A DNA stretch of 64,000 nt, taken from positions 2,604,001 through 2,668,000 of the forward strand of contig NZ_VFOO01000001.1 of the NCBI RefSeq assembly GCF_006716115.1, given 5' to 3'. This stretch comes from Subtercola boreus. GTDB lineage: Bacteria; Actinomycetota; Actinomycetes; Actinomycetales; Microbacteriaceae. Made by a program: the position numbers and the translations under genes. Positions 42,345 through 64,000 of this stretch are shown piece after piece (the stretch's first letter is position 1; each line of letters begins with the position of its first letter). The notes beneath the pieces are model-generated. The model was not told the origin of the DNA. It saw only the letters and a list, made by a program, of their open reading frames with translations, and searched no databases.

Positions 42345-43940
42345 TTACGGGTTCACACTCTCCAGCCGGGACGCGGCGAGCTGCGAAGCGGCTGCCCGCG
42401 CCCCGCGCACCGCGATGGCGACACTCATCAGGGTCGGGTTCATCGCCGTGGCCGTCGGAATGAGCGCGTTCCCACCGACGACCAGGTTGTCGAAGCCCCA
42501 GACGCGCGACCACGGGTCGGCGACGGAGGCGCCGTCGTCGGCGAGCCCCATACGCATGGTGCCCATGTAGTGCAGGCTCGACCCGGCCGGCAGCAGGCGC
42601 GGTTCGGCGACGAAGTGCCCGAGGGCCCCGCCTGCACGACGCAGCAGAGCCGTGCCCTGCGCGATCTCCGCATCCTCCGACGGGGTCAGCGCGTGCTGCA
42701 CGGTCATGTTCGGGAAGCCGCGGTAGTCGAGTTCGCCGTCGTCGAAGGTGACGCCGTCTTCATAGCGGGGCTGCTTGCGCATGCCGTAGCCCATGTTCAC
42801 GTACCCCCACCGGTTGTCGGCGTACGGAGCATCCGGAGCCATCGGGAAGGGCGTGGTCTCCGAGTACATGACCTGCAGCGAGAAGGGGTGGTCGGGCTCC
42901 GAGAACGGGATCCGGTTGACCGCAGCGACCGGGTCGACGGGGTTGGTCGCGCGGCGGGCGAGCTCCTCGTCGAGCTGTTCCTCGGTGGCGAGGCGGGCCA
43001 TCCGTTCGGCGTCGAGAGCGACGGTCGAGATGACGACGGGATGCTCGGTGAGGTAGTGGCCGAGAGCCCGGGGGCGGATTCCGGATGCCCAGAGGAGCTG
43101 GGGCGAACGGAAGGCATCCGCGGCGACGACCACCAGGTCGGCCTCGAAGGTGGAGGTCTGCCCGGTTCGGAGATCTTCGACGGTGACACCGGTGACCCGC
43201 GTCCCGTCATGCTCGATGCGGCGCACGAGCGAGAGGTCGCGAAGGGTGAAACGCTGGGCGAGTGGCGACTCCGGGTCGATCAGTTCGCCGAGCACGACGT
43301 CAGAACCCGCCCAGCGCATCGAGCCGTCGGGCTGGGGGTCACCCGCGACGGGGAGGGTACTGGGGCCGTATCCGTCGGGCAGTTCTGCGGCGAACTCCCC
43401 TTCGAGCAGGGTGCGGATCGCCCCTCCCACGGCAGAATCGGCGAAGGCTGCACTCTGTACATGCAGGAGTTTCTCGGCGACCCCGATCAGTTCGTTCCAC
43501 TCAGGCTCGCCGATGAACGGGATCTTCTCGCTGAAGGCCGGCCGCGGAGTCGCGCAGGTCCAGTGCGCCGCCATGCCGCCGACGTTGGTGGAGGCGGCTC
43601 CGGCCGGGAACGTCTCCGCGTGTGCCGAGCCGGCACCGCCGAAGTCGAGCAGGTGGGTGCCTTCGCGGGCGGTGAACATGCCCTCGACCACCGGCGCCAG
43701 CGAGAGGCCGAGCTCCTCCCGGAGGCTGCCGGCCTGCGGGCCCTGCGACAGGTCCCGGGCTCGCTTCTTCTCGTCGGGGTCGGCGATGTTCCGCACGCTC
43801 TCCCCCGGCGTCGACGTCAGCTGCGGGCCGGCTTCGAACATGGTCACGCGCGCATCGGGCAGGCTCTCGAGGAGCAGCCGGGCGTAGGCGGCACCGATCG
43901 GGCCGCTGCCGACGACGGCGATGGTGGGCTGGTGCGTCAT
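42345..43940 (-). CDS. GMC flavoenzyme, pyranose oxidase/C-glycoside 3-oxidase type
   Basis: A 531-residue FAD enzyme. The Rossmann motif is VVGSGPIGAAYARLL, as in pyranose oxidases, and GGMAAHWTCATP corresponds to their STHWTC motif, whose histidine binds FAD covalently in pyranose 2-oxidase. Near the end are the catalytic histidine region SSLHYMGTMRMG and asparagine region TAMNPTLMSVAIA. Bacterial relatives (CarA-type) oxidise the sugar of C-glycosides at C3. Start ATG has AAGGAG seven bases upstream; eight more codons are open into the MFS gene end. Follows a transporter gene. The C-deglycosidase genes downstream make a 3-oxidase role plausible. Confidence 0.8.
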   Translation of the reverse strand: MTHQPTIAVVGSGPIGAAYARLLLESLPDARVTMFEAGPQLTSTPGESVRNIADPDEKKRARDLSQGPQAGSLREELGLSLAPVVEGMFTAREGTHLLDFGGAGSAHAETFPAGAASTNVGGMAAHWTCATPRPAFSEKIPFIGEPEWNELIGVAEKLLHVQSAAFADSAVGGAIRTLLEGEFAAELPDGYGPSTLPVAGDPQPDGSMRWAGSDVVLGELIDPESPLAQRFTLRDLSLVRRIEHDGTRVTGVTVEDLRTGQTSTFEADLVVVAADAFRSPQLLWASGIRPRALGHYLTEHPVVISTVALDAERMARLATEEQLDEELARRATNPVDPVAAVNRIPFSEPDHPFSLQVMYSETTPFPMAPDAPYADNRWGYVNMGYGMRKQPRYEDGVTFDDGELDYRGFPNMTVQHALTPSEDAEIAQGTALLRRAGGALGHFVAEPRLLPAGSSLHYMGTMRMGLADDGASVADPWSRVWGFDNLVVGGNALIPTATAMNPTLMSVAIAVRGARAAASQLAASRLESVNP

Positions 43941-43969
43941 GAGTGCTCCTTCGTTTTCGGACATGTGGT

Positions 43970-45451
43970 TCAGACAGCGAGTGGTTCCGGTTCGGCGACG
44001 CGCTCGGCCGAGAGCCGGCCCGCGGGCAGGAGCACGCTGGCGACGATACCGACCCCGTAGGTGATGGCGAGCGCGAGGAACACCGGCGAGAAGACATCGT
44101 GGTAGATCGCGGCGACCTCGGCCTGCACGGCACCGCCGGAACCCTGCACGAGCTGCGGCGTCAACGTCGAGGCATCGAGCCCGGCGGGCAGCAGGGCGGC
44201 CACGCCGAAACCGACGACCCCGCCGATGACCGCCGTCGCGACGGTGGATCCGACCTGGCGCACCAGATTGACGGTCGAGGTGATGGTGCCCGTCTCGCGG
44301 TCGGAGACCGCGCTCTGCACCACCGCGACGATGAGGCTCATGAAGGCTCCCGTGCCCACCCCGACGACAGCCATGACGACCATCGGCACCCAGAGCGGCA
44401 GTCCGGCCGGCAGCACCGACATCACGAAGAGGCCGCCGGCGCCCAGAGCTGTTCCGATCAGGGGGAAGGGCCGGTAGTGGCCCGTGCGGCTGGCGAGCCA
44501 GCCGGTGAGCAGGTTGCTGACGAGCATCCCGAAGACCGTCGCGATCGGCACGAGCCCCGACGCTGTCGCGCTCAGTCCGTACGTCATCTGGAAGTAGGTC
44601 GGCAGGTAGGAGGTGATCGAGAACAGCCCGACGCCGATGATCGCGGAGATGGCCACGCCGGCCGCCACGGTGCGGTTCGCGAAGACGCGGAGCGGCACCA
44701 GCGGGTCGGCGACGCGGAACTCCACGACGAAGAAGACGATGAAGGCCAGGGCCGAGACCGCGAACGCCAGAACCGACGGAGAGCCGAGGGCGGGGTCGCC
44801 GATCCAGGTCACGGCGAGAACGAGGGCGGTCAGGGCGACCGTCAGGGACGCCGCGCCGGCGAAGTCGAACCGGGCTTTCACCCCGGGAGCGACGTGCGGC
44901 ACCGCGAAGAGCGCGAGAGCGAAGGCGGCGAAGCCGATCGGGATGTTGATCCAGAAGATCCACGGCCAGCCCCAGGTGTCGGCGATGAGCCCGCCGAGAA
45001 CCGGTCCGACGAGGATCGCGATGGGGAAGGCCGCCCCGATGATGGCCATCAGGCGCGGCCGCTCGCGGGGCGACGTGACGCGCGCGACGATCGTCTGCGA
45101 CATCAGCTGCAACCCGGCGGAACTCATGCCCTGCACGACCCGGGCCACGATGAGCCAGGCCATGCTGGACGCGAGTCCGCAGGCGAACGACGCCGCCACG
45201 AAGACGACCAGCGATGCCAGGAACACTGCGCGCGGCCCGAAGAGGTCGCCGAGCTTGCCGATGATGGGGAGCGTGACGGTGCTCGCGAGGGTGTAGCCGA
45301 CGATCACCCAGCCCAGGTGCTGCAGCGCACCGAGGTCGCCGGCGATCGTCGCGAGCGAGGTGGAGACGACCGTGTTGTCGAGGGCGCCGATGAAGGAGAC
45401 GGTGAGCAGGGAGACGACGAGGAGACGAAGTCGGAGCGGGGAGAGTGCCAT
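43970..45451 (-). CDS. MFS transporter, DHA2 (EmrB/QacA) type
   Basis: A 493-residue carrier with fourteen predicted helices. It starts with the typical FIGALDNTVVSTSLATIAGDL and has GKLGDLFGPRAVFLAS in loop 2-3 and VGPVLGGLIAD in helix 5. Usually drug/proton antiporters; in catabolic clusters this group can also move aromatic acids. I use the ATG at 45451 with GGTGAT ten bases upstream; in-frame starts at 45463 and 45466 are possible. Promoter at 45555-45583. Located directly upstream of the GMC oxidase gene on the same strand. Confidence 0.87.
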   Translation of the reverse strand: MALSPLRLRLLVVSLLTVSFIGALDNTVVSTSLATIAGDLGALQHLGWVIVGYTLASTVTLPIIGKLGDLFGPRAVFLASLVVFVAASFACGLASSMAWLIVARVVQGMSSAGLQLMSQTIVARVTSPRERPRLMAIIGAAFPIAILVGPVLGGLIADTWGWPWIFWINIPIGFAAFALALFAVPHVAPGVKARFDFAGAASLTVALTALVLAVTWIGDPALGSPSVLAFAVSALAFIVFFVVEFRVADPLVPLRVFANRTVAAGVAISAIIGVGLFSITSYLPTYFQMTYGLSATASGLVPIATVFGMLVSNLLTGWLASRTGHYRPFPLIGTALGAGGLFVMSVLPAGLPLWVPMVVMAVVGVGTGAFMSLIVAVVQSAVSDRETGTITSTVNLVRQVGSTVATAVIGGVVGFGVAALLPAGLDASTLTPQLVQGSGGAVQAEVAAIYHDVFSPVFLALAITYGVGIVASVLLPAGRLSAERVAEPEPLAV

Positions 45452-45554
45452 AGGTGTTCGCATCACCCGAGAGATCGGGCCGTCGACGAGACCTTCTGTG
45501 CCCCCGGAGCATCGTCACTCCGAGGAACGGGCGGGAAGCCCCTGCGTCCAGTCC

Positions 45555-45583: not shown

Positions 45584-45593
45584 CTGAAGTCGG

Positions 45594-46382
45594 TCACAAT
45601 GCGGCGCTTGCGGCAGAGTGACGGATGCTGTCGCTCATGTACTTCGAGCCGCCGGCCGAGGTGAACCCTCCGTCGACCGGGATCTCGGCGCCGGAGATGT
45701 ACGACGCGGCATCCGAGCAGAGGAACACGGCCAGTTCGGCCACCTCCTGCGCCGCGCCGAGCCGTTCGAGCGGGGTCAGCGCGAGCTGCGCGTCCCGCAT
45801 CGCCGAGGGGGCACCCCGGGTCATGTCGGTCTCGATGAAGCCGGGGTGCACGGCGTTGACCCGGATGCCCCGCGGCCCGTACTCGGCCGCCGCGACGTGA
45901 GTGAGACCGCGGAGGCCCCACTTCGACGCGGTGTAGGCGGCCGTGTAGTGGGCCGTGAGCGCCGCCGACGATCCGACGTTCAGGATCGACGAACCGGCAC
46001 CCATCAGCGGAGCGAGCGCCTGGATGCCGAGCATCGGACCGGTCAGGTTCACGGCGAGCACCCGCTCCCAGTCGCTGAGGAGAGTCTCGCCGAGCCGCGC
46101 GCGGTGCGTGATGCCGGCGTTGTTGATGAGTGCGCGGAGGGTGTCGCCTTTCAGCTCGGCGGCGAGGAGCGCGGCAAGCTGCTGCCAGCCGTGCTCGCTG
46201 GTCACGTCGAGGTGCCGGTAGGTGACGTCGGTGCCCGCGAACACCTCGGGCGTCTCCGTCGGCAGGTCCACCGCGATCACCCGGGCACCGGATGTCGCGA
46301 GCAGCAGCGCCTCGGCCGCGCCCTGTCCCCCGCCGGCACCCGTCACCACGACCATCCGCCCCGCAAGGCCCGGGTACGTCAT
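45594..46382 (-). CDS. Short-chain dehydrogenase/reductase (SDR)
   Basis: A 262-residue SDR with TGAGGGQG near residue 15, NNAG near 88 and the catalytic YTASK near 152. The ending SGAEIPVDGGFTSAGG is typical. Last gene of the seven-gene aromatic operon; its start overlaps the FAH stop (ATGA). It may dehydrogenate a dihydrodiol or hydroxy-acid intermediate; the substrate is inferred from context only. Confidence 0.88.
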   Translation of the reverse strand: MTYPGLAGRMVVVTGAGGGQGAAEALLLATSGARVIAVDLPTETPEVFAGTDVTYRHLDVTSEHGWQQLAALLAAELKGDTLRALINNAGITHRARLGETLLSDWERVLAVNLTGPMLGIQALAPLMGAGSSILNVGSSAALTAHYTAAYTASKWGLRGLTHVAAAEYGPRGIRVNAVHPGFIETDMTRGAPSAMRDAQLALTPLERLGAAQEVAELAVFLCSDAASYISGAEIPVDGGFTSAGGSKYMSDSIRHSAASAAL

Positions 46383-47404
46383 CGGTTCGCGCCGCGGGTG
46401 CGGGCGCGGCTGCGCACCCGGGCTGGCGGGATGATCGGGGCGGGCGACGCAGCCCCGACAATCGACACCAGCTCGCCCACGCCCTCGACCGTCATGCGAA
46501 CCACGTCACCCTCGCGAAGCGGCGCGGGTGTCAGATCGCCGCGGCGCCCCCAGAGCTCTGAGAGACATCCACCGTTGCCGGTCGTGCCCGAACCGAGCAC
46601 GTCGCCTGCGACCACCCGCGAGTTGCGGCTGGCGTAGGCCACGAGGTCGCCGAACGGCCAGCCCATGTTCGACACGAGGTCTTCGCCGACCAGCTCGTCG
46701 TTGACGCGAACCTCGGCGCGAACCGCGAGGAAGCCGTCGGCGTCGAGATACGGCTCGAGTTCGTCGGCCGTGACGATCCACGGGCCGAGGCTCGTGCCGA
46801 AGTCCTTGCCCTTCGCAGGACCCAGGCGCACCTTCATCTCCCGCGACTGCAGGTCGCGCGCCGACCAGTCGTTCATCACCGTGTAGCCGAAGATGGCGCC
46901 CCCGGCCTCGGCGGGCGTGAGGTTCGTGCCGCCGTCACCGCCGATCACCGCCGCGACCTCGAGCTCGAAGTCGAGCCGCTCCGTGACGGGAGGACACACG
47001 GGTTCGTCAGGACCGAGCACGGTGTGCGGGTTCGTGAAGTAGAAGGTGGGTGCTTCATACCACTCGGGAACGACCTCGCTCTTGCCGTCGACGGAGGCGC
47101 TCACCCCTTCGACGTGCTCCTCGAACGCCACGAAGTCGCGGATGCTCGACGGCACCAGCGGCGCGAGAAGCTGCACCTCGGCCAGGGATCGACCGGCCTC
47201 GGCGAGCGACCTGCCCGGAGCCGCCTCGCGCTCCACTTCCGCGTGGAGCTCGGCCGCGAGCGCCAGCCCGCCGTGAAGCACCGCGCCCACGGTCAGCCCG
47301 CGCGGGAACTCCACCACGCGCGATCCGATCACGAAGCCCTCGCCGGCGACATCCTCCCCCACGGCGCCCGGCTGCCCGGACACCGTCCAGCGGGCGATCC
47401 TCAC
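46379..47404 (-). CDS. Fumarylacetoacetate hydrolase (FAH) family protein
   Basis: A 341-residue protein of the fumarylacetoacetase-like branch. The metal site glutamates are in RLDFELEVAAVIGG, and LGSGTTGNGG replaces the SGTP loop of smaller members, as in true fumarylacetoacetases. WSARDLQSREMK is also conserved. GTG start overlaps the amidohydrolase stop (GTGA). It would split a diketo acid from ring cleavage. One of three FAH proteins in the window. Confidence 0.88.
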   Translation of the reverse strand: MRIARWTVSGQPGAVGEDVAGEGFVIGSRVVEFPRGLTVGAVLHGGLALAAELHAEVEREAAPGRSLAEAGRSLAEVQLLAPLVPSSIRDFVAFEEHVEGVSASVDGKSEVVPEWYEAPTFYFTNPHTVLGPDEPVCPPVTERLDFELEVAAVIGGDGGTNLTPAEAGGAIFGYTVMNDWSARDLQSREMKVRLGPAKGKDFGTSLGPWIVTADELEPYLDADGFLAVRAEVRVNDELVGEDLVSNMGWPFGDLVAYASRNSRVVAGDVLGSGTTGNGGCLSELWGRRGDLTPAPLREGDVVRMTVEGVGELVSIVGAASPAPIIPPARVRSRARTRGANR

Positions 47405-48417
47405 GGCGTCACCCGCGCGCCGAGCAGCGCGTCGGCGTTGCCGCCCAGGATCTGCTGCACCGCGTCGTCGTCGAGCGCGGCCGACCGCACGAACGCCACC
47501 GGATCCTCCGGCCCCATGTCGAACGGGAAGTCGCTGCCGAGCAGCACCTGCGACGCACCGACGATCTCGACGAGATGCCGGAGCCCCCGCGGGTCGTGCA
47601 CCACCGTGTCGAACCAGATGCGCGACAGGTAGCTCGACGGCTCGTGCGAGCAGCCGTGCGCCTCGGGACGAACCCGCCAGGCGTGGTCGGAGCGGCCGAT
47701 CGCGGTCGGCAGGTACCCGCCGCCGTGGGCCGCCACGATCCGGAGTCCCGGGTGCCTGTCGAGCACCCCCGAGAAGATCAGGTGCGAGAGGGCCACCGCG
47801 TTCTCGGTCGGCTGTCCGACGGTGTTCGAGAGGTAGAACCGGTCGAGCCGTTCGTCGAGGCTGCAGCCGAACGGGTGCAGGAAGACGATCGCCCCGAGCT
47901 CCTCGGCCCGCGCCCAGAACGGCTCCAGCCGTTCATCCGACAGCTCGACGTCTCCCGCGAACGACGAGATCTCGACACCCGCGAGCCCGCGGCCGAGCAC
48001 GGCGTCGTCGAGGCACTCCACCAGGCGGGACGGATGCTGCAGCGGCACGACCCCGAGCCCCGTGAGCCTGTCGGGGGCGCCGGCGACGTGTTCCGCGACG
48101 AGCCGGTTCGTCTCGAGCGCGATCCAGACCGCGAGGCCCTCCTCTGCCCAGGGGTAGAAGTGGCTGGGCGAGGCACTCACCCACTGCCGATCGACCTGCT
48201 GGGCATCCATCGCCGCGAGCCGCGCGCCGAGGTCGGTGAGGCGGCCGAAACGCTCGCGGATCATGGCCCCGGATGCTGCGAGACTCTCCGGCCCGTTCCG
48301 TCGGGCTTCGAGCTGCTGCGCGTCGGCGAACCCCTCGGGTGCGCGGCCCTGAACCGCCGCCTGGAGAGCGGGAAGCAGCACGTGGGCGTGCACGTCGGTG
48401 GTCACGTGCGCGCTCAT
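47401..48417 (-). CDS. Amidohydrolase-family decarboxylase/hydrolase (ACMSD-like)
   Basis: A 338-residue TIM-barrel protein. Metal ligands are visible: DVHAHVL (HxH near residue 10), FLHPFG, VAAHGGGYLP and the aspartate in LGSDFPFD. This layout belongs to the ACMSD group, whose members decarboxylate aromatic or muconate-semialdehyde acids without oxygen. ATG start overlaps the stop of the FAD monooxygenase gene. In this operon it could decarboxylate a benzoate-type acid or a ring-cleavage product. Confidence 0.82.
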   Translation of the reverse strand: MSAHVTTDVHAHVLLPALQAAVQGRAPEGFADAQQLEARRNGPESLAASGAMIRERFGRLTDLGARLAAMDAQQVDRQWVSASPSHFYPWAEEGLAVWIALETNRLVAEHVAGAPDRLTGLGVVPLQHPSRLVECLDDAVLGRGLAGVEISSFAGDVELSDERLEPFWARAEELGAIVFLHPFGCSLDERLDRFYLSNTVGQPTENAVALSHLIFSGVLDRHPGLRIVAAHGGGYLPTAIGRSDHAWRVRPEAHGCSHEPSSYLSRIWFDTVVHDPRGLRHLVEIVGASQVLLGSDFPFDMGPEDPVAFVRSAALDDDAVQQILGGNADALLGARVTP

Positions 48418-49553
48418 GCCGGCTGCGCCATCTTCTGGGCGATGCCGAAGATCAGCCCGGGGGCGTCAGCGTCCCTGTTGTGTTCGAGCTGCCATTGGCC
48501 GAGCTGCACGGATGCCTCCACCACCGCCTGCGCACGCGGCAGCCGACGCTCGTGAAAGGTCTGCCACAGCGACTCGTCGAGCGCCGGGGACTCGACGAGG
48601 AGCTCGCTCAGCACGAATGCGTCTTCGAGCGCCTGCGCGGCACCCTGCGCGATCGTCGGCGGGCAGCTGTGCGCCGCGTCGCCGATGATGACGATGCGGC
48701 CGCGGTTCCATGGGGCAGGCACGATGTGCGAGGTGAACCAGGTGTAGTTGACCCGCGCATCGGTTCCCGCGAGGTCGCGGCGGATCGACTCCCACGGCCC
48801 CTGGTAGGCCAGCGACTGCTCGCTCATCAGTCGGGCCGCGTCTTCTGACGTGATTCCGGCGCGATCGTGCGACGCCTCGACGAGGAACGCGTACATCGAG
48901 TTCTCGCCGGTGGGCGTGTAGCCGGCGATGTAGGCGGGGCCGCCGTAGTACAGCTCGCTGTGCTCGACCTCGGCCGGGCGCGACACCTGGGCGCGCCAGA
49001 TCCCCATGCCCGTTCGAACAGGCACCGTGTCGATGCCGATCAGGTCGCGAACGCCCGAGTGCACACCGTCTGCCCCGACAAGCAGGTCGTACGTGCCGAC
49101 CGACTCCCCGTTCACCCACACCTCGACCGCGTCGTCGCCCACCTGTTCCGCACCGGTCACGGCCGATGCGAAGTGGATGCCCACCCCGACCTCCTCGGCC
49201 CGTTCGAGCAGCACACGGTTGAGGTCGGGCCGGTACATCCCCATAGCGGCCGGGTAGTCGGGGCCACCGGTCTGCACCTCGGGAAGGTCGGCGATCACGG
49301 GCGCCCCGGGGCCGGGAGCCCTGATGCTCAGACCCTCGAACGGGTAACCGAGCTCCCGGATGCGCGGCCAGACGCCGAGCGCATCGAACACCCGGAGCGC
49401 ATTGCCCTGCAGCGTGATTCCCGAGCCGACGGTGCTGAGTTCGGGCTTCAGCTCGAAGACGTCGACCTCCACGCCGGCTTTCGCGAGCTGGATGGCGGTC
49501 GCGAGCGCGGCCGCCCCGCTTCCGGCGATGGCCACTTTCTGCACTGCTGTCAT
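48414..49553 (-). CDS. FAD-dependent monooxygenase (salicylate/hydroxybenzoate hydroxylase-like)
   Basis: A 379-residue hydroxylase. The N-terminal dinucleotide motif is VAIAGSGAAALATAIQLA, which departs from the usual GGGxAG pattern. The GADGVHSGVR motif and IVIIGDAAHSCPPTIAQG are well kept. It would hydroxylate an aromatic acid with NAD(P)H. A 9-base tandem repeat (49584-49628) lies just upstream of its start, in the spacer to the cyclase gene, the only long gap within the operon. Confidence 0.87.
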   Translation of the reverse strand: MTAVQKVAIAGSGAAALATAIQLAKAGVEVDVFELKPELSTVGSGITLQGNALRVFDALGVWPRIRELGYPFEGLSIRAPGPGAPVIADLPEVQTGGPDYPAAMGMYRPDLNRVLLERAEEVGVGIHFASAVTGAEQVGDDAVEVWVNGESVGTYDLLVGADGVHSGVRDLIGIDTVPVRTGMGIWRAQVSRPAEVEHSELYYGGPAYIAGYTPTGENSMYAFLVEASHDRAGITSEDAARLMSEQSLAYQGPWESIRRDLAGTDARVNYTWFTSHIVPAPWNRGRIVIIGDAAHSCPPTIAQGAAQALEDAFVLSELLVESPALDESLWQTFHERRLPRAQAVVEASVQLGQWQLEHNRDADAPGLIFGIAQKMAQPA

Positions 49554-49583
49554 GTCAGAACCTCTCTGTCCTGTGGTCTTGCG

Positions 49584-49628
49584 TTCGGGTGATTCGGGTC
49601 GTTCGGGTCGTTCGGGTCGTTCGGGTCG
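49584..49628. repeat. Tandem repeat, five units of 9 bases
   Basis: TTCGGGTGA is followed by four perfect copies of TTCGGGTCG, and a degenerate sixth unit follows. It fills most of the 85-base spacer between the cyclase stop and the monooxygenase start in an operon where other neighbours overlap or lie within two bases. Copy number changes would alter the distance to the ribosome site. Confidence 0.9.
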
Positions 49629-49638
49629 AGCGGGTGCG

Positions 49639-50637
49639 TCAGAAGATGGCGACCGGGTTGATCGGCGAGCCGACAGCCCCCGTGATGGCGAGCGGCGAGG
49701 CCACGAGCAGGAACTCGTACCGGCCCCGCGCCAGGCACGACTCGGCGAGCGCGTCGAGATCCCACAGCTCCCCGATCGTGAGCCCGATGTTCGGGATCGC
49801 CACCTGGTGCAGCGGCTGGAACGCCGCCACGTCGAACTCGTTGGGCCGCACTTCGAAGCCCCACGTGTCGGTTGCGATCGCGGCGACCTCGGTACGGTGG
49901 ATCCAGCCCGCCGTGGTGAGCGAGAGCCCGGGCGCGGGCCCGCCGGCGTAGTCGCCCCAGCCGTCGCGCTTCGCCCGCGCCAACTGGCCGGTGCGCACTA
50001 CGACCATGTCCCCCCTGCCCACGGCGCTCGTGGCACCCTGGGCGGCGATGCAGGCGTCGAGGTCGGCAGCCGTGATCGCGTAGCCGTCGGGCAGCTCACC
50101 GGTCTCGGGGTACAGGTGCCGGCCGAGGTCGAGCAGTACCCCGCGCGAGACGCCCGCGGCCGCTGCATGCTCGATGCCCGTCACGAGGTCACCGTCGCTC
50201 GTCACGACGTCACCCGCCCGCCGGCCGTTCCAGGCGAAGCCGTGGTCGAAGATGTGGCCGAGGCCGTCCCACTGGGTCGAGCACTGCAGGGGCATCGCGA
50301 CGATGTCGTCGGCTCCCCCGATGCCGTGCGGGAATCCCTGGTTGCCCCGTTCGGCATCCGTCCCCGTGTCGAGCATGGTGTGCACCGGGTTGGTGCGGCG
50401 ACGCCAGCCCTTCTGCGGTCCGTTCATGTCGAACGGCTGCGTCAGCGAGACGACGGTGCCATCGGTGACGAGGGCCGCCGCCTGCCGGCGCTTGGCGGCG
50501 TCGACGAAGTTGAGAGTGCCGAGAACGTCGTCTTCGCCCCAGCGACCCCAGTTGCGGTAGGCCTCGGCCCGCGCGTTGATCTCCGCCTCGGGGTCGCTCC
50601 GGTCGAGGCCCTCCGGATGCTCGGCAGGGGCCGTCAC
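49639..50637 (-). CDS. Cyclase family protein (metal-dependent hydrolase)
   Basis: A 332-residue protein of the cyclase/kynurenine-formamidase-like superfamily. STQWDGLGHIFDHGFAWNG is the metal-binding block (family form HxGTHxDxxxH, here partly changed), and GDMVVVRTG is the typical later block. The GTG start overlaps the FAH stop. In aromatic clusters these enzymes hydrolyse cyclic esters or amides. Function here is inferred. Confidence 0.82.
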   Translation of the reverse strand: MTAPAEHPEGLDRSDPEAEINARAEAYRNWGRWGEDDVLGTLNFVDAAKRRQAAALVTDGTVVSLTQPFDMNGPQKGWRRRTNPVHTMLDTGTDAERGNQGFPHGIGGADDIVAMPLQCSTQWDGLGHIFDHGFAWNGRRAGDVVTSDGDLVTGIEHAAAAGVSRGVLLDLGRHLYPETGELPDGYAITAADLDACIAAQGATSAVGRGDMVVVRTGQLARAKRDGWGDYAGGPAPGLSLTTAGWIHRTEVAAIATDTWGFEVRPNEFDVAAFQPLHQVAIPNIGLTIGELWDLDALAESCLARGRYEFLLVASPLAITGAVGSPINPVAIF

Positions 50638-51614: not shown

Positions 51615-51616
51615 GG

Positions 51617-54575: not shown

Positions 54576-54600
54576 GATGCGACTCGCTCTCTTCTGTCGC

Positions 54601-54615
54601 AATTATGCCTAAGTT
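54601..54615 (-). promoter_or_regulatory. Weaker copy of the shared ROK-type motif
   Basis: On the minus strand the sequence is AACTTAGGCATAATT, which shares TTAGRCATAA with the site at 55963. It lies between the divergent Gfo/Idh and ROK genes, where control of both is possible. The match is 10 of 14, so it is a suggestion only. Confidence 0.4.
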
Positions 54616-54682
54616 CTGTTGCAGGAGTCCATAGCGGGTGGGTTGGCGACACTTGTGCACTGAGCTTGTGTGAGAATCGATC

Positions 54683-55948
54683 ATGGCCCGCGAATCATCC
54701 CTGCGCTTCGGCGCACAGACTGACGAGATCACCAGTCTGCTCCGCATCATCAATCTGGTGCGCACAGAGGAAGCCGTCACCCGCCCCGAGATCGGCAGGC
54801 TCACCGGTCTCGGCCGCGGAGTCGTCACCCAGCGGGTCGACGCCGCCATCGAAGCCGGCTTTCTCGAAGACGGCGAATTCGGGCAGTCCTCCGGCGGCCG
54901 TGCGCCCCGAACACTGCGCTTCCGCTCCGACCAGGCCCACATCATCGTGTGCGCCCTCGGCGCCCTGCACATCCGGGTCGGCATCGCCAGCCTCGACGGA
55001 ACGGTGACCTCGCAGACCCACCGCGAGTGGGACATCGCCACAGGTCCCGCGGCCACCCTCGACACCGCGCTCGGCATGATCGACGAGCTCCTCGCCGACG
55101 AGCCGGAGCGCCCGGTCTGGGCCGTGTCGGTCGGAGTGCCCGGCCCCGTGGACTTCGAGAGCGGATCGCCGGTCGCGCCGCCCATCATGCCGGGCTGGAA
55201 CGGCTTCGACATCCGCCGCCGCTTCGAGCAGCGGTTCGACGCACCGGTCTGGGTCGACAACGACGTGAACCTCCTGACCCTCGCCGAACGGCAGCGTCGA
55301 CGCGACGAACCGATCGACCTCATCTACTGCAAAGTGGGCAGCGGAATCGGCGCGGGACTGTTGTCGCGCGGGCGCCTGCACCGCGGGGCGAACGGCGCCG
55401 CCGGCGACATCGGGCACGTGCGGGTGCGCGATTCGGCCGAGCCGTGCCGGTGCGGAAAGGTGGGCTGCCTGGAGGCAGAGGCGGGCGGCTGGGCGTTGGT
55501 GCGCCGGGCCAACCGGGCCATCGAAGACGGCGCGACCGGGATGCTCGCCACCCAGTTCGCCGGCGGGCTGGCCATCACCCCCGAAGCCATCGCCGTGGCC
55601 GCGATGGACGGGGACGCCCTCGCCATCTCGCTGGTGCACCACTCGGCCGGGCTGGTCGGCGAATCGATCGCCGCCCTCGTCAACATGTTCAACCCCAACG
55701 TCATCGTGATCGGCGGCTCCGTCTCGGCGGCGGGCGAGATCTTCCTCGCCGAGGTGCGACGACGCGTGTACGAGCTGTCACTGCCGCTCGCGACCCGCGA
55801 CCTCAGCCTGGTGCGGTCTGTTGGCGACGAGAAGGAACCGCTGCGCGGCGGCGCCCAGCTCGCGATCGAGCAGCTCTTCGATGCGACGTTCCCTCGTTGG
55901 TTCGCCGAGGGCCGGCCGACGATCGTCGGGGTACGCGCAGCAGCCTGA
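54683..55948 (+). CDS. ROK family transcriptional regulator
   Basis: A 421-residue NagC/XylR-type repressor. An N-terminal winged helix (EIGRLTGLGRGVVTQRVDAAI) is followed by a sugar-kinase-like domain with GVPGPVDF, the zinc motif CRCGKVGCLEAEAGG and the ATP/sugar block NPNVIVIGGSVS. It should sense a sugar or sugar derivative. It stands between a Gfo/Idh gene (divergent) and a C-deglycosidase pair (downstream). A shared motif near 54601, 55963 and 45566 gives it a plausible regulon. Confidence 0.9.
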   Translation: MARESSLRFGAQTDEITSLLRIINLVRTEEAVTRPEIGRLTGLGRGVVTQRVDAAIEAGFLEDGEFGQSSGGRAPRTLRFRSDQAHIIVCALGALHIRVGIASLDGTVTSQTHREWDIATGPAATLDTALGMIDELLADEPERPVWAVSVGVPGPVDFESGSPVAPPIMPGWNGFDIRRRFEQRFDAPVWVDNDVNLLTLAERQRRRDEPIDLIYCKVGSGIGAGLLSRGRLHRGANGAAGDIGHVRVRDSAEPCRCGKVGCLEAEAGGWALVRRANRAIEDGATGMLATQFAGGLAITPEAIAVAAMDGDALAISLVHHSAGLVGESIAALVNMFNPNVIVIGGSVSAAGEIFLAEVRRRVYELSLPLATRDLSLVRSVGDEKEPLRGGAQLAIEQLFDATFPRWFAEGRPTIVGVRAAA

Positions 55949-55962: not shown

Positions 55963-55976
55963 AATTAGACATAAGC
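55963..55976 (+). promoter_or_regulatory. Shared motif AATTAGACATAAGC upstream of a C-deglycosidase operon
   Basis: A 14-base motif 17 bases before the start of the deglycosidase beta gene, matching 45566-45579 at 13 of 14 positions. CATAAG here and CTTATG at the start codon form a loose inverted pair. TATGTT (55979-55984) could be a -10 box, giving a very short or absent leader. Confidence 0.55.
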
Positions 55977-55993
55977 GTGTATGTTTTCGTCTT

Positions 55994-56404
55994 ATGACAC
56001 TCTCCGCACTCCGGTCTGACGCCCTGGCGGCCACGCCGAACGGGTTCGAGCTGCGGCTGGGGCTGCCGTGGATCCGGTCGATGCCCCTCTCGAGCGTCGG
56101 GGAGCTGGCCCTGACTCTCGATGACACTCCGGTGGCCGTCGACATCACCGTCGGCGACCGCTGCGTCGCCCCCGACCACCTCGCAGACGAGCCGGGGTGG
56201 TGGTTCATCCAGGATCGCCTCGTACTCGCCGGCCACGAGCATCCTTTGCCCGGCGAACACGACGTCGAGGTGCGGTTCACTCTGATGGTGCCGTACCTGC
56301 AGGGTGGACCCGGGGCGCCGTTGGCCCTGCCGTTCCGGATCGCGGGGACGCTCACGCCCGACGCCGCGGCAGGCGTTCCCACGGTGTCGCGCGATGTCGC
56401 CTGA
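55994..56404 (+). CDS. C-glycoside deglycosidase beta subunit (DUF6379/CGDB type)
   Basis: A 136-residue beta-rich protein of the family once called DUF6379, now known as the small subunit of CarBC/DgpBC-type enzymes that break the C-C bond of C-glycosides. Blocks LGLPWIRSMPL, GWWFIQDRLVLAG and VRFTLMVPYLQ align with the second copy at 62067 (LPWYRSLWL, LWFVADK, LVLTLRLLYMQ). It overlaps the alpha-type gene by 11 bases. The start has no clear ribosome site and a -10-like box nearby. Confidence 0.8.
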   Translation: MTLSALRSDALAATPNGFELRLGLPWIRSMPLSSVGELALTLDDTPVAVDITVGDRCVAPDHLADEPGWWFIQDRLVLAGHEHPLPGEHDVEVRFTLMVPYLQGGPGAPLALPFRIAGTLTPDAAAGVPTVSRDVA

Positions 56405-57386
56405 GCCGGAAGGCTGGACGTTCGCCGCCAGCACCTTCAACTGGACCCCCGACATCATCGCCGCCGAGCGCGAAGCGGCCGACATCGTCTGCTCGATCGT
56501 CGCTGACGGCGTGACCGAGACCGTCGAGCTCGAAGCGGGCTCCGTGTGGCGATCGTTCCCGTCGCCCGCCGACGCCGAGGTCGACGCGCTCCACGAGTCC
56601 CTCACCGCGGTGGGCGGCACGGTCAGCATGGTGGGCCTCAGCCTCGACGACTACACCGCCACCCTGAGGCCGCGGAGCCACGACGAACGGCTGGCCTTCC
56701 TCTCACCGCAGCTCCGGGCTGCGAACCGGGTCGGCGCACGCGGGGTGCGCCTGCCGATCGGCCAGGCCGGGCACCGGCTGCTGGATGACCTGCTGCCCCT
56801 GCTCGAACAGTACGACCTCACGCTCTACGAGGAGATCCAGGGCCAGCAGGCGCCCTCGTCGCCGCCTGTCACCGCCGCTCTCGAGACGATCGACTCGCTG
56901 GCGAGCGACCGCGTGCGGGTGCTGGTCGACGTCAGCCTGCTCATGCCCGCCCTCCCCGTCTCCTATCTGGAGCGACTGTCGGCCGCGGGCCTGCCCCCCG
57001 ACCTCCTCAGCCGGCTCGACTCGGAGTGGCGCGACCCGGCGACCGGGGACGCGGTGACCGCGTTCCTGCGGTCTGGTGGGGTGCCGGCATCCATCCACAC
57101 CCTCTACATGAACCTGCTGATCCGCTTCGGCCGATCCCCCGTCGACGACCTACGAGGCGTCCTGCCGCTCATCGGTGCGTTCCACCTCAAGTTCTGGGAC
57201 CTCGACGACACCGACGCGCGGGTCTCGGCCCCGCTCGCCGACCTCGCCCGGCTGCTGCGCTCCTCGGGCCGACCCTTCGCGGGCACCCTGACGAGCGAGT
57301 GGGGCGGCCACGAATGGCTCGACGGCGTGGATGCGACCGCCGTCACGCGCGCCCACCTCGCACTCGCCCGCACCGCCCTCGCCTGA
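56394..57386 (+). CDS. TIM-barrel sugar isomerase-like, C-glycoside deglycosidase alpha-type subunit
   Basis: A 330-residue protein of the sugar phosphate isomerase/epimerase (AP-endonuclease-2 fold) superfamily. Likely metal ligands are glutamate in LYEEIQG, aspartate in LVDVSLL, histidine in FHLKFWD and glutamate in TSEWGGHEW. Paired and overlapping with a CGDB protein, it fits the alpha subunit of a C-glycoside deglycosidase, acting on 3-oxo-glycosides. It is clearly divergent from the second pair's alpha at 62473, so the two may prefer different aglycones. Confidence 0.72.
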   Translation: MSPEPEGWTFAASTFNWTPDIIAAEREAADIVCSIVADGVTETVELEAGSVWRSFPSPADAEVDALHESLTAVGGTVSMVGLSLDDYTATLRPRSHDERLAFLSPQLRAANRVGARGVRLPIGQAGHRLLDDLLPLLEQYDLTLYEEIQGQQAPSSPPVTAALETIDSLASDRVRVLVDVSLLMPALPVSYLERLSAAGLPPDLLSRLDSEWRDPATGDAVTAFLRSGGVPASIHTLYMNLLIRFGRSPVDDLRGVLPLIGAFHLKFWDLDDTDARVSAPLADLARLLRSSGRPFAGTLTSEWGGHEWLDGVDATAVTRAHLALARTALA

Positions 57387-57424
57387 GCCCGGGCTGCGTC
57401 AAGAGCGCCGCGAGGAAGTCTTCA

Positions 57425-58093: not shown

Positions 58094-58118
58094 CGAGCCA
58101 ATTACCAAGGAGCACATC

Positions 58119-58742: not shown

Positions 58743-58851
58743 GGCGATAGCGAAATGGGGAGGGAGTGACTGCGCCGCGCACGACAGTTCGGCGCTGTCA
58801 AGGCGTCGGCCCGGTCGCACCGCCCCGCTCAGGGGTGCGTAAGGTCGAAGG

Positions 58852-59859: not shown

Positions 59860-59865
59860 CGCGAC

Positions 59866-60870
59866 CTACTTGGTGGAGAAGGCGGCGTCGAACGCGGCCG
59901 CCGACGGCTCGTACGTCGAGAGGCGGCGCACGAAGCCGAGCGCCTCGGGCGCGCCGACGAGGCGGTCCATGCCGGCATCCTCCCACTCGACGGAGAGCGG
60001 CCCGGCGTAGCCGATCGCATTCAGCATGCGGAAGGCGTCCTCCCACGGCACGTCGCCGTGCCCGGTCGAGATGAAGTCCCAGCCGCGCCGCGGATCCGCC
60101 CACGCCAGATGGGAGGAGAGGCGGCCGTTCCGTCCGTTGGCGAGGCGCTTCTTCGTGTCTTTGCAGTGCACGTGGTAGATCCGGTCCTTGAAGTCCCAGA
60201 GGAAGCCGACGGGGTCGATGTCCTGCCAGACCATGTGCGAGGGATCCCAGTTGAGACCGAATGCCTCGCGGTGGCCGATGGCCTCCAGAGCGCGCACGGT
60301 GGTCCAGTAGTCGTAGGCGATCTCCGAGGGGTGCACCTCGTGGGCGAACCGCACGCCGACCTCGTCGAAGACGTCGAGGATCGGGTTCCAGCGGTCGGCG
60401 AAGTCCTGGTAGCCGGCGTCGACCATCGCCTCGGTGACGGGCGGGAACATGGCGACGTATTTCCAGATCGACGAACCGGTGAAACCTGTCACGGTCTTCA
60501 CGCCGAGCGCGGCCGCGAGGCGCGCCGTGTTCTTCAGCTCCTCGGCCGCACGCTGGCGCACCCCCTCCGGGTCGCCGTCGCCCCAGACGCGGTCGGAGAG
60601 GATGTCGCGGTGCCGCTGGTCGATCGGATCGTCGCAGACCGCCTGGCCCTTGAGGTGGTTCGAGATCGTGAACACCTGCAGGCCGTTCCGTTCGAGGATG
60701 TCGAGCCTGCCCTGCACGTAGGCCGCGTCATCCCAGCGCCAGGGGTCGAGGTGGTCGCCCCAGCAGGCGATCTCGAGGCCGTCGTAGCCCCACTCGCCAG
60801 CGAGCCGGGCCACCTCCTCGAAGGGCAGGTCGGCCCACTGGCCGGTGAACAGGGTGATCGGTCGAGCCAT
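59866..60870 (-). CDS. Sugar phosphate isomerase/epimerase family protein
   Basis: A 334-residue TIM-barrel protein. Metal ligands are expected in [23 protein letters not shown] and [10 protein letters not shown]. These enzymes epimerise or isomerise keto sugars; in this setting the substrate may be the 3-keto sugar released from glycosides. Last gene of the five-gene minus-strand operon that starts beyond the window end, 12 bases after the Gfo/Idh gene. Confidence 0.87.
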
Positions 60871-60882
60871 AGTCAGATTCTC

Positions 60883-62070
60883 CTACGTCAGAAGGGCGGG
60901 TTCGGTGACGCTCACCCAGGCCGAGTCGCGCGCCGAGCTCTGCTCGACAGCGTCGAGCACACGCTGCACCCCGAGTCCGTCAGCAAAACTCGGCCGAGGG
61001 TCTTCACCGCGCACGATGGCTTCGACGAAATCCTTCGCCTGGTGCGAGAAGCCGTGTTCGTAGCCGAGCAGGTGGCCGGCAGGCCACCAGCCCGAGACAT
61101 ACGGATGCACGGGTTCGGTGACCAGGATGCGCGTGAAGCCCTGCCGGTCATCCGGTGCCGTACGGTCGTAGAGCTGCAGGCTGTTGAGGTCTTCGAGGTC
61201 GAACGCCAGCGCGCCGCGGTCGCCGGAGACTTCGATCGTGAGCTGGTTCTTCCGCCCGGTGGCGAAGCGGGTGGCCTCGAAGCTCGCGAGAGCACGGGAC
61301 GATAGCCTGCCGGTGAAGAGGGCGAGATCGTCGACGGTCACGTCGCCGAACCCGGCACCGGCGACGCCCGAGAGTCCCGACGACCCCGGCCCGGACTGCG
61401 GGAGCGGCCGCTGCTTGACGAGCGTCTCGACGACGCCCGTCACCGAGTCGACAGACTGCCCGGTGACGAACTGCGCCAGGTCGATGATGTGCGCCCCGAT
61501 GTCGCCGAGGGCCCCCGAGCCGGCGTGCTCCTTCTGCAGGCGCCAGGCGAGAGGTTCGTTCTCGTCGACGAGCCAGTCCTGCCGGTAGGCGGCACGCACC
61601 TGGCGCACCTCCCCGACCGCACCGGAGGCCACGAGGTCGCGCAGCAGGGTGACGGCAGGGACGCGCCGGTAGGTGAACCCGACCATCGAGCGGACGCCGC
61701 GCCCGGCCGCGAGCTGGGCCGCGACATCCATCGCGGAGGCCTCGGCCACCGAGTTCGCGAGCGGCTTCTCGCACAGCACGTGCTTGCCCGCCTCGAGCGC
61801 GGCGATCGCGATCTCGGCGTGCGAGTCACCGGGGGTGACGATGTCGACGATGTCGATGTCGTCGCGGGCGATGACCTCGCGCCAGTCCGTGGCCGACTCG
61901 GCCCAGCCCCACTTCGCTGCGGCCGCCGAGGCAGCTGCAGCGTTCCGGCCGACGAGCACCGCCATCTCGACGCTGTCCGGCAGGTCGAAGGCGGCGGGCG
62001 CCTGCCGCCAGCCGACCGAGTGCGCCGCCCCCATGAAACCGTGGCCGATCAGGGCCACCCGGAGGGTCAC
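60883..62070 (-). CDS. Gfo/Idh/MocA family oxidoreductase
   Basis: A 395-residue NAD(P)-dependent dehydrogenase. Motifs are ALIGHGFMGAAHSVGW for the cofactor, LCEKPLANSVAEA with the catalytic lysine, and GDIGAHIIDLAQFVTG with the histidine. GTG start overlaps the stop of the CGDB gene (GTGA). DgpA-type members oxidise the C3 hydroxyl of C- and O-glycosides, the step needed before C-C cleavage, so it is a good partner of the deglycosidase pair directly upstream. Confidence 0.88.
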   Translation of the reverse strand: MTLRVALIGHGFMGAAHSVGWRQAPAAFDLPDSVEMAVLVGRNAAAASAAAAKWGWAESATDWREVIARDDIDIVDIVTPGDSHAEIAIAALEAGKHVLCEKPLANSVAEASAMDVAAQLAAGRGVRSMVGFTYRRVPAVTLLRDLVASGAVGEVRQVRAAYRQDWLVDENEPLAWRLQKEHAGSGALGDIGAHIIDLAQFVTGQSVDSVTGVVETLVKQRPLPQSGPGSSGLSGVAGAGFGDVTVDDLALFTGRLSSRALASFEATRFATGRKNQLTIEVSGDRGALAFDLEDLNSLQLYDRTAPDDRQGFTRILVTEPVHPYVSGWWPAGHLLGYEHGFSHQAKDFVEAIVRGEDPRPSFADGLGVQRVLDAVEQSSARDSAWVSVTEPALLT

Positions 62071-62465
62071 GCCAGCACCACCTGGCGCTCGACTTCGACG
62101 CGGTTGCCGACGTAGCGCATCGGGGCGATCTGCATGTAGAGCAGGCGCAGGGTGAGCACGAGGTCGACGTCGATGCTCGCGCCCGCCTCCGGAACAACGG
62201 GCAGCGGGATGATCACCTGCGGTTTGTCGGCGACGAACCAGAGCGTCTCCCACTGATCAGGCAGTTCGGCGATCGAGTACGACGTACCCTGCAGCTCGAA
62301 GCGCAGCGACTCCCGCGGAATCTCGACACCGTCGACCGTCGCAGCGACGTCGTCGACACACGAGAGCCAGAGGCTCCGGTACCACGGCAGCTGGATGGAG
62401 ACGGCGATGCCCTCGGGATGACGCGCGACGTCAGCCTCGGAGAAGAGGGAGTTGTGGGTTGCCAT
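62067..62465 (-). CDS. C-glycoside deglycosidase beta subunit (DUF6379/CGDB type)
   Basis: A 132-residue beta-rich protein, paralogue of the one at 55994. It holds IQLPWYRSLWLSCVDDVA, LWFVADK and LLYMQIAPMR, the family blocks. A GAGG ribosome site precedes the ATG. It is seven bases after an alpha-type subunit gene and overlaps a Gfo/Idh gene, which is close to the known dgp/car arrangement: oxidoreductase plus the two deglycosidase subunits. The reaction is cleavage of the C-C bond of a 3-oxo-C-glycoside. Confidence 0.83.
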   Translation of the reverse strand: MATHNSLFSEADVARHPEGIAVSIQLPWYRSLWLSCVDDVAATVDGVEIPRESLRFELQGTSYSIAELPDQWETLWFVADKPQVIIPLPVVPEAGASIDVDLVLTLRLLYMQIAPMRYVGNRVEVERQVVLA

Positions 62466-62472
62466 GGGATCC

Positions 62473-63561
62473 TCACTCGGCGTTCTGTAGGGCGGCGGCG
62501 GCGGTTGCCGGTGCGGTGGATGTCGCGGCAGCCCCGCGAGCGACAGCATTCTCGATCGTGCGGCGCATCAGCGTGTGCTGCTTCTTCACCAGGTCGATCG
62601 GGTCGCTCTCGCCGAGGTCGCTGAACGCGTGCCCCTCCCACTCGCTCGAGAGGTAGCCCTGGTACCCGCCCGCGACGAACTGCTCCACGATGCGCGGGAT
62701 GTCCATGGCCGGCTCGTCGCCGTTCGCGTCGATGTCGTAGAACTTGGCGTGCACGTGGAAGATCTGCGGCATGATGTCGAGCCACTCCTCCGGCGGCACC
62801 AGCCCGTGCATGTTGAAGGCGAGCCGGGTGAAGGGTCCGAGCCGGGCGCCGTCGAAGTTCTCGCTCGCCAGGAAGTCCTCGAACTTCTGGTTGCGCACGT
62901 ACATCGGGGTCGGCTCGTGCCAGATCTCGTCCATCACGGGGAAGTACTTCTCGGGCATCCCCATCTGCGACAGCGTGCGGAGCAGCGTCGGCGACAGGCT
63001 GTGCATGGTGGAGGAGAAGTCGGCGGTGAAGCCGAGCCGCTCGCTCTGCAGTTCGTCGTACATCTCGCGCATCTGCAGCACCTGCGGGTCGTTCGGCCCC
63101 GACGGCGCGTGGATCTCGTAGCCGAGCTTCTGGTCGTACTTCTCGGCGAGCGGCAGGAGGCTCCGCAGCAGCTCCTTGCCGTGCGAGCGGATGACGACCT
63201 TCGTGAACCCGAGCTGGTGGGCGGTCTTCAACTGCCGGGCGAGGAAGTCGTGCTCCTCGTCAGGCGACATGTCGCGTTCCTTCCGGCGGCCCATGTCGAG
63301 GTTGGTGCCGATGGCGCTGGGCTCGAGGCCGTAGCGGTCCATGCTGTCCCGCCAGAGACGGATGAAGTCGTCGTCGACGTCCGGGTAGGTGCGGAGCATC
63401 TGGGCGATGTTGAACTCGACGCCCGGGCCGAGGCCCTCGTCGGCTGCCGCCTTGATGAGTGTCTCGGGGGTGTACAACCCAGCCGCGAACTCCGAGGTGA
63501 GCGAATAGAGGGTGATGCCGAGCTTGATGCCCGTTCCGGCGATACCGTTCTCTTCAGTCAT
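62473..63561 (-). CDS. C-glycoside deglycosidase alpha subunit (sugar isomerase fold)
   Basis: A 362-residue TIM-barrel protein. Metal ligand candidates: glutamate in GYEIHAPSG, aspartate in FTADFSST, histidines in FHVHAKFYDID and glutamate in LSSEWEGHAF. An alanine-rich tail of about 15 residues ends the protein. Start ATG 63561 matches the domain start; the longer frame is inside the previous gene. Followed by its CGDB partner, it is the stronger of the two deglycosidase alpha candidates in this window. Confidence 0.8.
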   Translation of the reverse strand: MTEENGIAGTGIKLGITLYSLTSEFAAGLYTPETLIKAAADEGLGPGVEFNIAQMLRTYPDVDDDFIRLWRDSMDRYGLEPSAIGTNLDMGRRKERDMSPDEEHDFLARQLKTAHQLGFTKVVIRSHGKELLRSLLPLAEKYDQKLGYEIHAPSGPNDPQVLQMREMYDELQSERLGFTADFSSTMHSLSPTLLRTLSQMGMPEKYFPVMDEIWHEPTPMYVRNQKFEDFLASENFDGARLGPFTRLAFNMHGLVPPEEWLDIMPQIFHVHAKFYDIDANGDEPAMDIPRIVEQFVAGGYQGYLSSEWEGHAFSDLGESDPIDLVKKQHTLMRRTIENAVARGAAATSTAPATAAAALQNAE

Positions 63562-63575
63562 GATGTGGGCGTCTC

Positions 63576-64000
63576 TCAGTTCAGGTGGGGAACGGGCCGC
63601 GCGAGGTGTGCCGCGAGAACGCTGGCAGCCTCCGCCCGGTCGGTGATCATCCTGCTGCCCGCGTTCGAGGCGGCCGAGCGCTGCACCGCCTGTTCGTCGC
63701 GGACGATATCGAAGGGGCTCTGCCAGTGGTTCCAGTGCCACCCCTCGTATTCGCTCGAGATCGCGCCCGAGTAGCCGTTCTCGACGAGCAGCGTCACCAG
63801 CTCGCGCACCGGCACCGACGGTTCCTCGTGGTTCTCGTCGATGCCGAAGAACTTGCCGTGCACGTGGCGCACCCAGGGCAGGATCTCGAGCCAGTCCTCG
63901 ACGCGCGCGGGCCCGAAGAGCCCGGTGCCGTTGATCGCAAAGTCGATGCCGAGCTCGGGCCGGCCGTTCTGGGCGGCGAGGCCGATGAACGATCCGAAGC
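63576..64000 (-). CDS. Sugar isomerase-like protein, C-terminal part (cut by window end)
   Basis: The visible 140 residues match the end of the deglycosidase alpha gene next door: VRHVHGKFFGIDENHEEP compares with its FHVHAKFYDIDANGDEP, and ISSEYEGWHW with LSSEWEGHAF. So it is a third TIM-barrel paralogue of this group, in the same operon, 14 bases upstream of its neighbour. The N-terminus and any further genes of the operon lie outside the window. Confidence 0.8.
   Translation of the reverse strand, partial: FGSFIGLAAQNGRPELGIDFAINGTGLFGPARVEDWLEILPWVRHVHGKFFGIDENHEEPSVPVRELVTLLVENGYSGAISSEYEGWHWNHWQSPFDIVRDEQAVQRSAASNAGSRMITDRAEAASVLAAHLARPVPHLN

Follow-up and report, generated by a model that had tools for sequence, protein, structure and literature searches.

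A C-glycoside deglycosidase-like gene pair with replaced catalytic residues in a catabolic cluster of Subtercola boreus

We analysed a 64,000-nucleotide stretch of the Subtercola boreus assembly GCF_006716115.1 (hereafter, the window; genome positions 2604001-2668000 on one contig of a 4.2 Mb genome in two contigs) and focused on the gene pair g056/g057, which is related to the beta and alpha subunits of C-glycoside deglycosidases (CGDs). The pair retains the metal site of these enzymes, but three residues are replaced, namely the catalytic His, the Glu that supports it and the beta-subunit Tyr specific for C-C cleavage. From these residues we cautiously favour a metal-dependent role in C-glycoside catabolism in which the aglycone would not be eliminated. 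Genes were called in the window and in the adjoining 32 kb on its right; positions beyond 64000 follow on from the window numbering.

Catalytic residues of g056/g057

The g057 protein had no match in Pfam or NCBIfam, and its best match in the PDB was the alpha subunit of AgCGD2 (7dnm_A, E 2.4e-29). The catalytic residues of AgCGD2 described by Mori et al. (PMC8563793) served as the alignment reference for alpha subunits; here and below, published statements are drawn from the available portions of the cited papers. The five metal ligands of AgCGD2 (E147, D179, H269, K271 and E305) are kept in g057 as E147, D179, H264, K266 and E302. The Mn-site residues, which an earlier note on this DNA had singled out for checking, are thus complete in g057, as they are in g064, the alpha subunit of a canonical CGD encoded nearby. 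The catalytic His149 is replaced by Gln149 and the supporting Glu307 by Gly304. Misalignment at the His149 position was rejected, as phmmer and MAFFT agree on the Gln.

The replacements are shared within the family. We aligned 71 alpha-type proteins from this genome and 16/18 of the other family genomes that carry the CGDB domain of the beta subunit; of the two left out, G073 was later seen to have the His type, and G171 has no g057 match. All intact g057-type alphas (13/13) have Gln and Gly together with the five metal ligands, and all canonical alphas (58/58) have His149 and Glu307. In the tree of these 71 proteins the Gln rows are separated from the rest by a branch supported at 100/100, with long branches flagged. 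For the beta subunit, chain position 39 of 7bvr_B was treated as Tyr39 of PuCGE, and by alignment the C-C-specific Tyr is the Tyr of PWYRS. It is present in 58/58 canonical betas, whereas g056 has Ile27 there and Ile was found in 11/11 core g056 orthologues, one of which comes from the broken copy in G226.

Known CGDs bind the 3-keto group at the metal; His149 abstracts the proton from C2 and helps the leaving group to depart, and activation of the aglycone falls to the beta Tyr (PMC8563793, PMC10628242, PMC13273386). Neither C- nor O-glycoside eliminases work without the catalytic His, the H134A variant of AtOGE being inactive (PMC8563793, PMC10628242), and changing Tyr39 of PuCGE removes C-C cleavage and leaves O-glycoside cleavage (PMC10628242). 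The earlier note had placed two alpha/beta pairs in the window and read both as deglycosidases. Both pairs are present, and the reading stands for g063/g064; it was rejected for g056/g057, in which His149, Glu307 and the beta Tyr are all replaced and the metal site is kept. Likewise, the small protein g063 belongs to the CGDB family as had been suggested, while g056 scores below the cut-off (Table 1). Judged by its residues, g056/g057 lacks defining features of a CGD and its annotation as a working one is unwarranted; ordinary elimination has probably been lost.

Among known systems, the pair is most readily compared with the CGD/CGE family (AgCGD2, CarBC = MiCGD, DgpBC = PuCGD, DfgAB = EuCGD and PurBC), with which it shares an alpha and a beta subunit encoded together and the five metal ligands, and from which it differs in the Gln, Gly and Ile described above. 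The single-chain CGD of Microbacterium testaceum (8qrz, 8un2) has a parallel in 27/80 relatives of g056/g057 that are likewise single open frames, but it keeps the elimination His that these fused relatives lack. AtOGE of Agrobacterium is, like the relatives of the CGD alpha subunit, a metal-dependent TIM barrel acting on 3-keto-glycosides (PMC10628242); it works without a beta subunit and depends on its catalytic His, whereas g057 has a beta subunit and no such His. No His-less CGD homologue and no 2-/3-keto-C-glycoside isomerase was recognised in the available portions of the open-licence literature searched, supplements excluded.

Conservation and spread of the pair

Searching GTDB genomes with the g057 alignment yielded 97 relatives, of which 80 were retained. 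Gln149 is present in 79/79 readable rows and lies outside both scan patterns, the second of which is missing from 24/80 rows; the Gly was found in 80/80, a count that is partly circular in that one of the patterns contains it. A pattern-free search of the family genomes gave the same Gln/Gly outcome. The canonical alphas of the same 80 loci keep His and Glu in 133/133 readable rows. A His occurs somewhere within a protein's own positions 143-157 in 23/79 rows, at places that are not conserved. The beta partner lies at most 600 bases away in 80/80 loci and carries Ile in 79/79 readable rows; alpha and beta form one open frame in 27 loci, separate frames on the same strand in 37, and are divided between the two strands in 16. 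A row that had no letter at a given position was left out there (one alpha, three truncated canonical alphas and one beta). A loose regular expression for the Tyr in other betas of these loci matched 96/139 and was not relied on, the family beta alignment being used instead.

Among named relatives, those closest to g057 belong to Subtercola boreus (83%) and Subtercola sp. Z020 (80%), and every readable named relative has the five metal ligands. By title the relatives are actinobacteria, chiefly Microbacterium, Arthrobacter, Agromyces and Leifsonia, and the presence of Micrococcaceae loci means that the Gln type is not restricted to one family. Two contigs titled Planococcus sp. and Stenotrophomonas maltophilia (L073, L099) have 69% GC (guanine plus cytosine) and actinobacterial gene order and are probably contaminated or mislabelled assemblies. 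Three strains or species that feature in published C-glycoside work (PMC8563793, PMC10646112) also carry the pair, namely Arthrobacter globiformis NBRC 12137, M. trichothecenolyticum DSM 8608 and P. siccitolerans 4J27, so its role could be tested by existing assays.

An intact g057-type alpha was found in 13 of the 19 CGDB-positive genomes of the family and a broken copy in one more, and there was no g057 match in the 280 CGDB-negative genomes of the same draw. A canonical CGD alpha is encoded at most 10 kb away in 66/70 full-length loci (70/80 overall). A close g057 orthologue was found in 3/12 genomes of the genus. In the class, 6 of the 394 genomes scanned had a match, and the Gln type was seen only in G000, G258 and G674, all of the same family as the window; G576 and G586 of other families have the His motifs, and a weak match in G602 has no motif. 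The corresponding scan of the order (396 genomes, 15 with a match) gave the Gln type in G674, G964 and G955, again of this family, and full-length His-type alphas in eight genomes of other families. A partial match in a further genome from another family of the order (G982, L176; 31% over 103 residues) has Gln and Gly at the catalytic positions and is possibly a distant member of the Gln type. No g057 relative was found in viral contigs.

The ratio of nonsynonymous to synonymous substitution rates (dN/dS) of g057 was 0.22-0.27 against its Subtercola relatives, where the canonical g064 and g065 gave 0.05-0.10, and 0.23-0.30 against two Arthrobacter, where the canonical genes gave 0.16-0.21. g057 is thus under purifying selection. 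At least 98% invariance was found at 70/330 positions of g057, including the metal ligands, Q149, G304, R119, E146 and R244-R247. Decay of the gene was rejected on the basis of a dN/dS well below 1 and the invariant metal ligands, despite two broken copies.

The fused orthologue L082 was modelled with a predicted local distance difference test score (pLDDT) of 88 and a predicted template modelling score (pTM) of 0.72. The top 16 matches of the model in a fold search were CGDs, with a template modelling score (TM) of 0.82 for the alpha part to 7dnm_A and of 0.53 over both domains to 8un2; they were followed by a xylose-isomerase domain and then by D-tagatose/D-psicose epimerases. According to this model, the g056/g057 type bears the CGD fold of a TIM barrel and a beta-sandwich. 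The D-tagatose/D-psicose 3-epimerases are, like the g057 type, metal-dependent TIM barrels, but their TM normalised to the target was just 0.58-0.65 (4pfh, 2hk0, 4pgl) and they have no beta subunit. These epimerases move a proton with two metal-bound Glu.

A possible keto-isomerase role and its alternatives

C-glycosides resist ordinary glycosidases, and in this cluster they may be broken down by oxidation of the sugar at C3 by the GMC oxidases g044 and g067 and the Gfo/Idh enzyme g062, perhaps also g054, then elimination of the 3-keto-glycoside by the canonical metal-dependent CGDs (g063/g064, g065/g066 and the fused g074 and g075). The aglycone would pass on through an aromatic operon and a protocatechuate-type operon past the window. 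The published route is leaky in that 3-keto-C-glycosides convert spontaneously into 2-keto forms; with nothofagin this conversion is in effect one-way under the conditions published, and the resulting 2-keto-nothofagin escapes cleavage (PMC10628242, PMC13273386). Since g056/g057 keeps the metal site and lacks the elimination residues, of which the His is essential even for O-glycosides, it would still bind a keto-glycoside at the metal, and the aglycone would be retained. Reversal of the isomerisation through a metal-bound enediol would need just the parts that g056/g057 keeps. We therefore tentatively name conversion of the dead-end 2-keto-C-glycoside back into the CGD-cleavable 3-keto form as the likeliest single step, although it may well be another; the proton could be moved by the metal-bound Glu pair or by a new residue. 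A conserved complex encoded next to the CGDs, with their substrate-binding parts but without the cutting residues, is a direct candidate for an undescribed pathway step, and a keto-glycoside isomerase, if confirmed, would be an undescribed activity, made from a deglycosidase by loss of its leaving-group machinery, in strains that have already been studied. The case also cautions against annotating every CGD-like pair as a deglycosidase.

The genes beside the pair may bear on its role. g053, which has no match in Pfam or NCBIfam, was modelled with a pLDDT of 94, and its nearest Foldseek match was the UDP-N-acetylglucosamine 3-dehydrogenase GnnA (TM 0.71). It has Arg in 36/36 aligned rows at a position whose equivalence to the Lys of the EKP motif is deduced from the motif, whereas EKP is present in 69/69 orthologues of g054. 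The nucleotide-binding glycine loop GxGxx[GAS] was matched by 7/36 g053 rows, although the pattern is noisy and matched just 36/69 g054 rows. g053 is the same-strand neighbour of g054 in 67/67 loci with both, g054 adjoins the regulator gene g055 on the opposite strand in 66/69 loci, and g055 is on the same strand as g057 and within two genes of it in 74/76 loci with both. Across 17 genomes compared, g053 or g054 was found only with core g057. A degenerate oxidoreductase beside a normal one therefore adjoins the deglycosidase look-alike. It is conceivable, if doubtful, that these genes form a repair module, in which g056/g057 would be the isomerase, a heteromeric oxidoreductase g053/g054 would adjust the redox state of 2-keto-C-glycosides, and the ROK regulator would be a further member.

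Several observations weigh against a non-eliminating role in the pathway. The dN/dS of g057 is about 1.1 to 5 times that of canonical alphas, indicating weaker constraint, and broken copies occur in G226 and L129. The g057 type is absent from 5/19 CGDB-positive family genomes, so it is not needed for C-glycoside use as such. Three deep relatives (G232, G016 and G292) combine a Gln/Gly alpha with a Tyr beta, which suggests that the alpha change probably came first. 2-Keto-puerarin re-equilibrates fast unaided (PMC10628242), and rescue would then matter for some substrates only. In addition, H306, E307 or R244 of g057 might serve as an alternative base.

With such a base, the pair could still be an eliminase for a different glycoside, either an O-glycoside with an easy leaving group or one with another sugar. 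The retained metal site and beta subunit fit this, as does the conservation of H306/E307 and R244; moreover, PuCGE with its beta Tyr changed to Phe retains most O-glycoside activity (PMC10628242), and oxidised O-glycosides can break down without an enzyme (PMC12724307). We regard it as unlikely, given that the His is essential for the O-glycoside eliminase AtOGE as well and that the position of H306 is occupied by a His in AgCGD2-type alphas too (EWEGHAF), where the available text of PMC8563793 gives it no catalytic role. Replaced catalytic residues in both subunits, faster evolution than the canonical copies and the nearly constant position near the ROK gene would suit a pseudoenzyme, that is, a keto-glycoside-binding or regulatory complex, perhaps one serving the ROK regulator. 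That is quite unlikely in view of the five metal ligands kept in all readable rows and of the new polar residues R119, E146, Q149 and R244, whose invariance mere binding would not require; the deep relatives G232 and G143 also have no g055-type ROK match in the stretches examined.

It is very unlikely that g056/g057 hydrates 2-hydroxy-3-keto-glucal, the elimination product, to 3-keto-glucose. The pathway is thought to require a hydration, for which the preliminary candidate in A. tumefaciens is a sugar-isomerase-like protein (PMC10628242), but g061 and g068, in an operon with the CGDs, are more obvious candidates (g061 being a possible hydratase), and an aglycone-binding beta subunit would be superfluous for a free sugar product.

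The surrounding cluster

The genome has five places with a CGDB domain, all inside genome positions 2660033-2679109 (within 19 kb). Three of them, namely g066 and the N-terminal parts of g074 and g075, lie past the right-hand end of the window. There are four canonical CGDs, of which two are heterodimers and two are fusions; three of the four are wholly or partly past that end. The window also contains the two Gfo/Idh oxidoreductases, the pyranose-oxidase-like GMC enzyme and the seven-gene aromatic operon that the earlier note had described (Table 1), and its view of the region as a C-glycoside catabolic locus, here an actinobacterial one, with both oxidation types is well supported. That note had further considered two diverged deglycosidases together with both oxidation types to be unusual, which was rejected: CGDB is present in 19/299 family genomes, with at least three places in 15 of the 19, and 15/16 family clusters have both GMC and Gfo/Idh genes (by best-hit labels, one of them weak at 29%). 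The gene content and order of the cluster are largely common to several genera, and the cluster, its canonical and fused CGDs and its oxidases are of already known kinds.

Table 1 Features of the window and its right edge, with positions in window numbering.
Gene	Feature	Position	Strand	Basis
	Possible flavonol operon: FAA hydrolase, FAD (flavin adenine dinucleotide) hydroxylase, DUF3500 protein, esterase, cupin protein, GH1 glycosidase	6926-14005		
g044	GMC oxidoreductase, pyranose oxidase / glycoside 3-oxidase type	42345..43940	-	Pfam GMC; PDB match
g045	MFS transporter	43970..45451	-	Pfam MFS_1
g046-g052	Seven-gene aromatic operon	45594..52633	-	Pfam
g053	Gfo/Idh-fold protein, no sequence family; Arg at the expected EKP lysine	52729..53538	-	Model, Foldseek
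g054	Gfo/Idh oxidoreductase with EKP motif	53535..54575	-	Pfam
g055	ROK-family regulator, first gene of g055-g056-g057	54683..55948	+	Pfam ROK
g056	Divergent CGD beta, Tyr replaced by Ile27	55994..56404	+	CGDB 22.1 bits, under the 27.6 cut-off
g057	Divergent CGD alpha	56394..57386	+	7dnm_A match, alignments
g061	Sugar-isomerase-like TIM barrel	59866..60870	-	Pfam AP_endonuc_2; weak IolE match
g062	Gfo/Idh dehydrogenase, levoglucosan-dehydrogenase-like over its full length	60883..62070	-	360.7 bits, curated cut-off 650
g063	Canonical CGD beta, AgCGD2 type, Tyr kept	62067..62465	-	Pfam CGDB 56.7 bits (cut-off 27.6); alignment
g064	Canonical CGD alpha of AgCGD2 type with every catalytic residue present	62473..63561	-	7dnm_A match; alignment
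g065	Second canonical CGD alpha	63576..64000, continuing to 64685 past the window	-	Gene call, alignment
g066	Beta of g065	After g065, outside the window		CGDB place

By its sequence, g063/g064 is an ordinary C-glycoside deglycosidase close to the solved AgCGD2: g064 aligns with 7dnm_A without gaps (656.9 bits) and g063 with 7dnm_B at 239.5 bits, and the metal ligands, His149, Glu307 and beta Tyr are all present. A canonical-like alpha in another genome of the genus (G1036, L178) has Thr for Glu307 and keeps the His, so Glu307 is not strictly universal among His-type alphas.

In g074 and g075 the CGDB domain is N-terminal and the TIM barrel is in the same chain. g075 (L007:17811-19115) matches the single-chain M. 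testaceum CGD over its whole length (779.5 bits), and the idea that the fused CGD is new was rejected, that enzyme being already solved. In the g075 fused type the metal ligand His269 is replaced by Gln in 14/14 rows, as in the solved M. testaceum enzyme, and a Gln at this position was also seen in five distant alphas of the order. The g075 orthologue is divided between two genes, one for beta and one for alpha, in G103, G028 and G226 (L031, L038 and L046) and is fused in several relatives, which indicates repeated fusion or fission, as for g056/g057.

The best PDB match of g044 was the pyranose oxidase 8qve (373.8 bits), followed by 7dve and 7qf8. Past the window, g067 is a close relative of 7qf8 (755.8 bits) and 7dve, which we take to be PsG3Ox and AgCarA, respectively. 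In its closeness to PsG3Ox, g067 links the region to the PsG3Ox/CarA/PurA clusters of soil actinobacteria. P. siccitolerans 4J27 (L136) has the same cluster type, including orthologues of g056/g057; the available text of PMC10646112 names two CGD_B and two CGD_C near psg3ox and no His-less pair.

The aromatic operon g046-g052 encodes an SDR, an FAA hydrolase, an amidohydrolase, an FAD hydroxylase, a cyclase-family protein, a second FAA hydrolase and an extradiol-type dioxygenase. Past the window there are genes for ATP-binding cassette (ABC) transport and others reminiscent of the protocatechuate branch, the latter encoding a carboxymuconolactone decarboxylase-family protein, an alpha/beta hydrolase, a lyase, two dioxygenase subunits, an IclR regulator and an FAD hydroxylase.

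The divergent intergenic region between g054 and g055 (54576-54682) has the direct repeat TTCTGTYGCA twice, a possible operator. The repeat has no copy in the other long intergenic gaps of the cluster, and no operator common to the ROK promoter and other cluster promoters was found. A 289-residue protein of G090 (L030, about 2221-3090), which we assume to resemble ThuA, is encoded at most 10 kb from g057 in 54/80 loci and has no match in the region studied here. The genes g058-g060 (57425-59859), between g057 and g061, encode a TetR regulator, an F420-dependent-type oxidoreductase and an SDR; at this place the SDR is present in S. boreus (L058) and missing in Subtercola Z020 (L059). The operon at the left of the window lies far from the CGD cluster and might serve O-glycosyl flavonoids.

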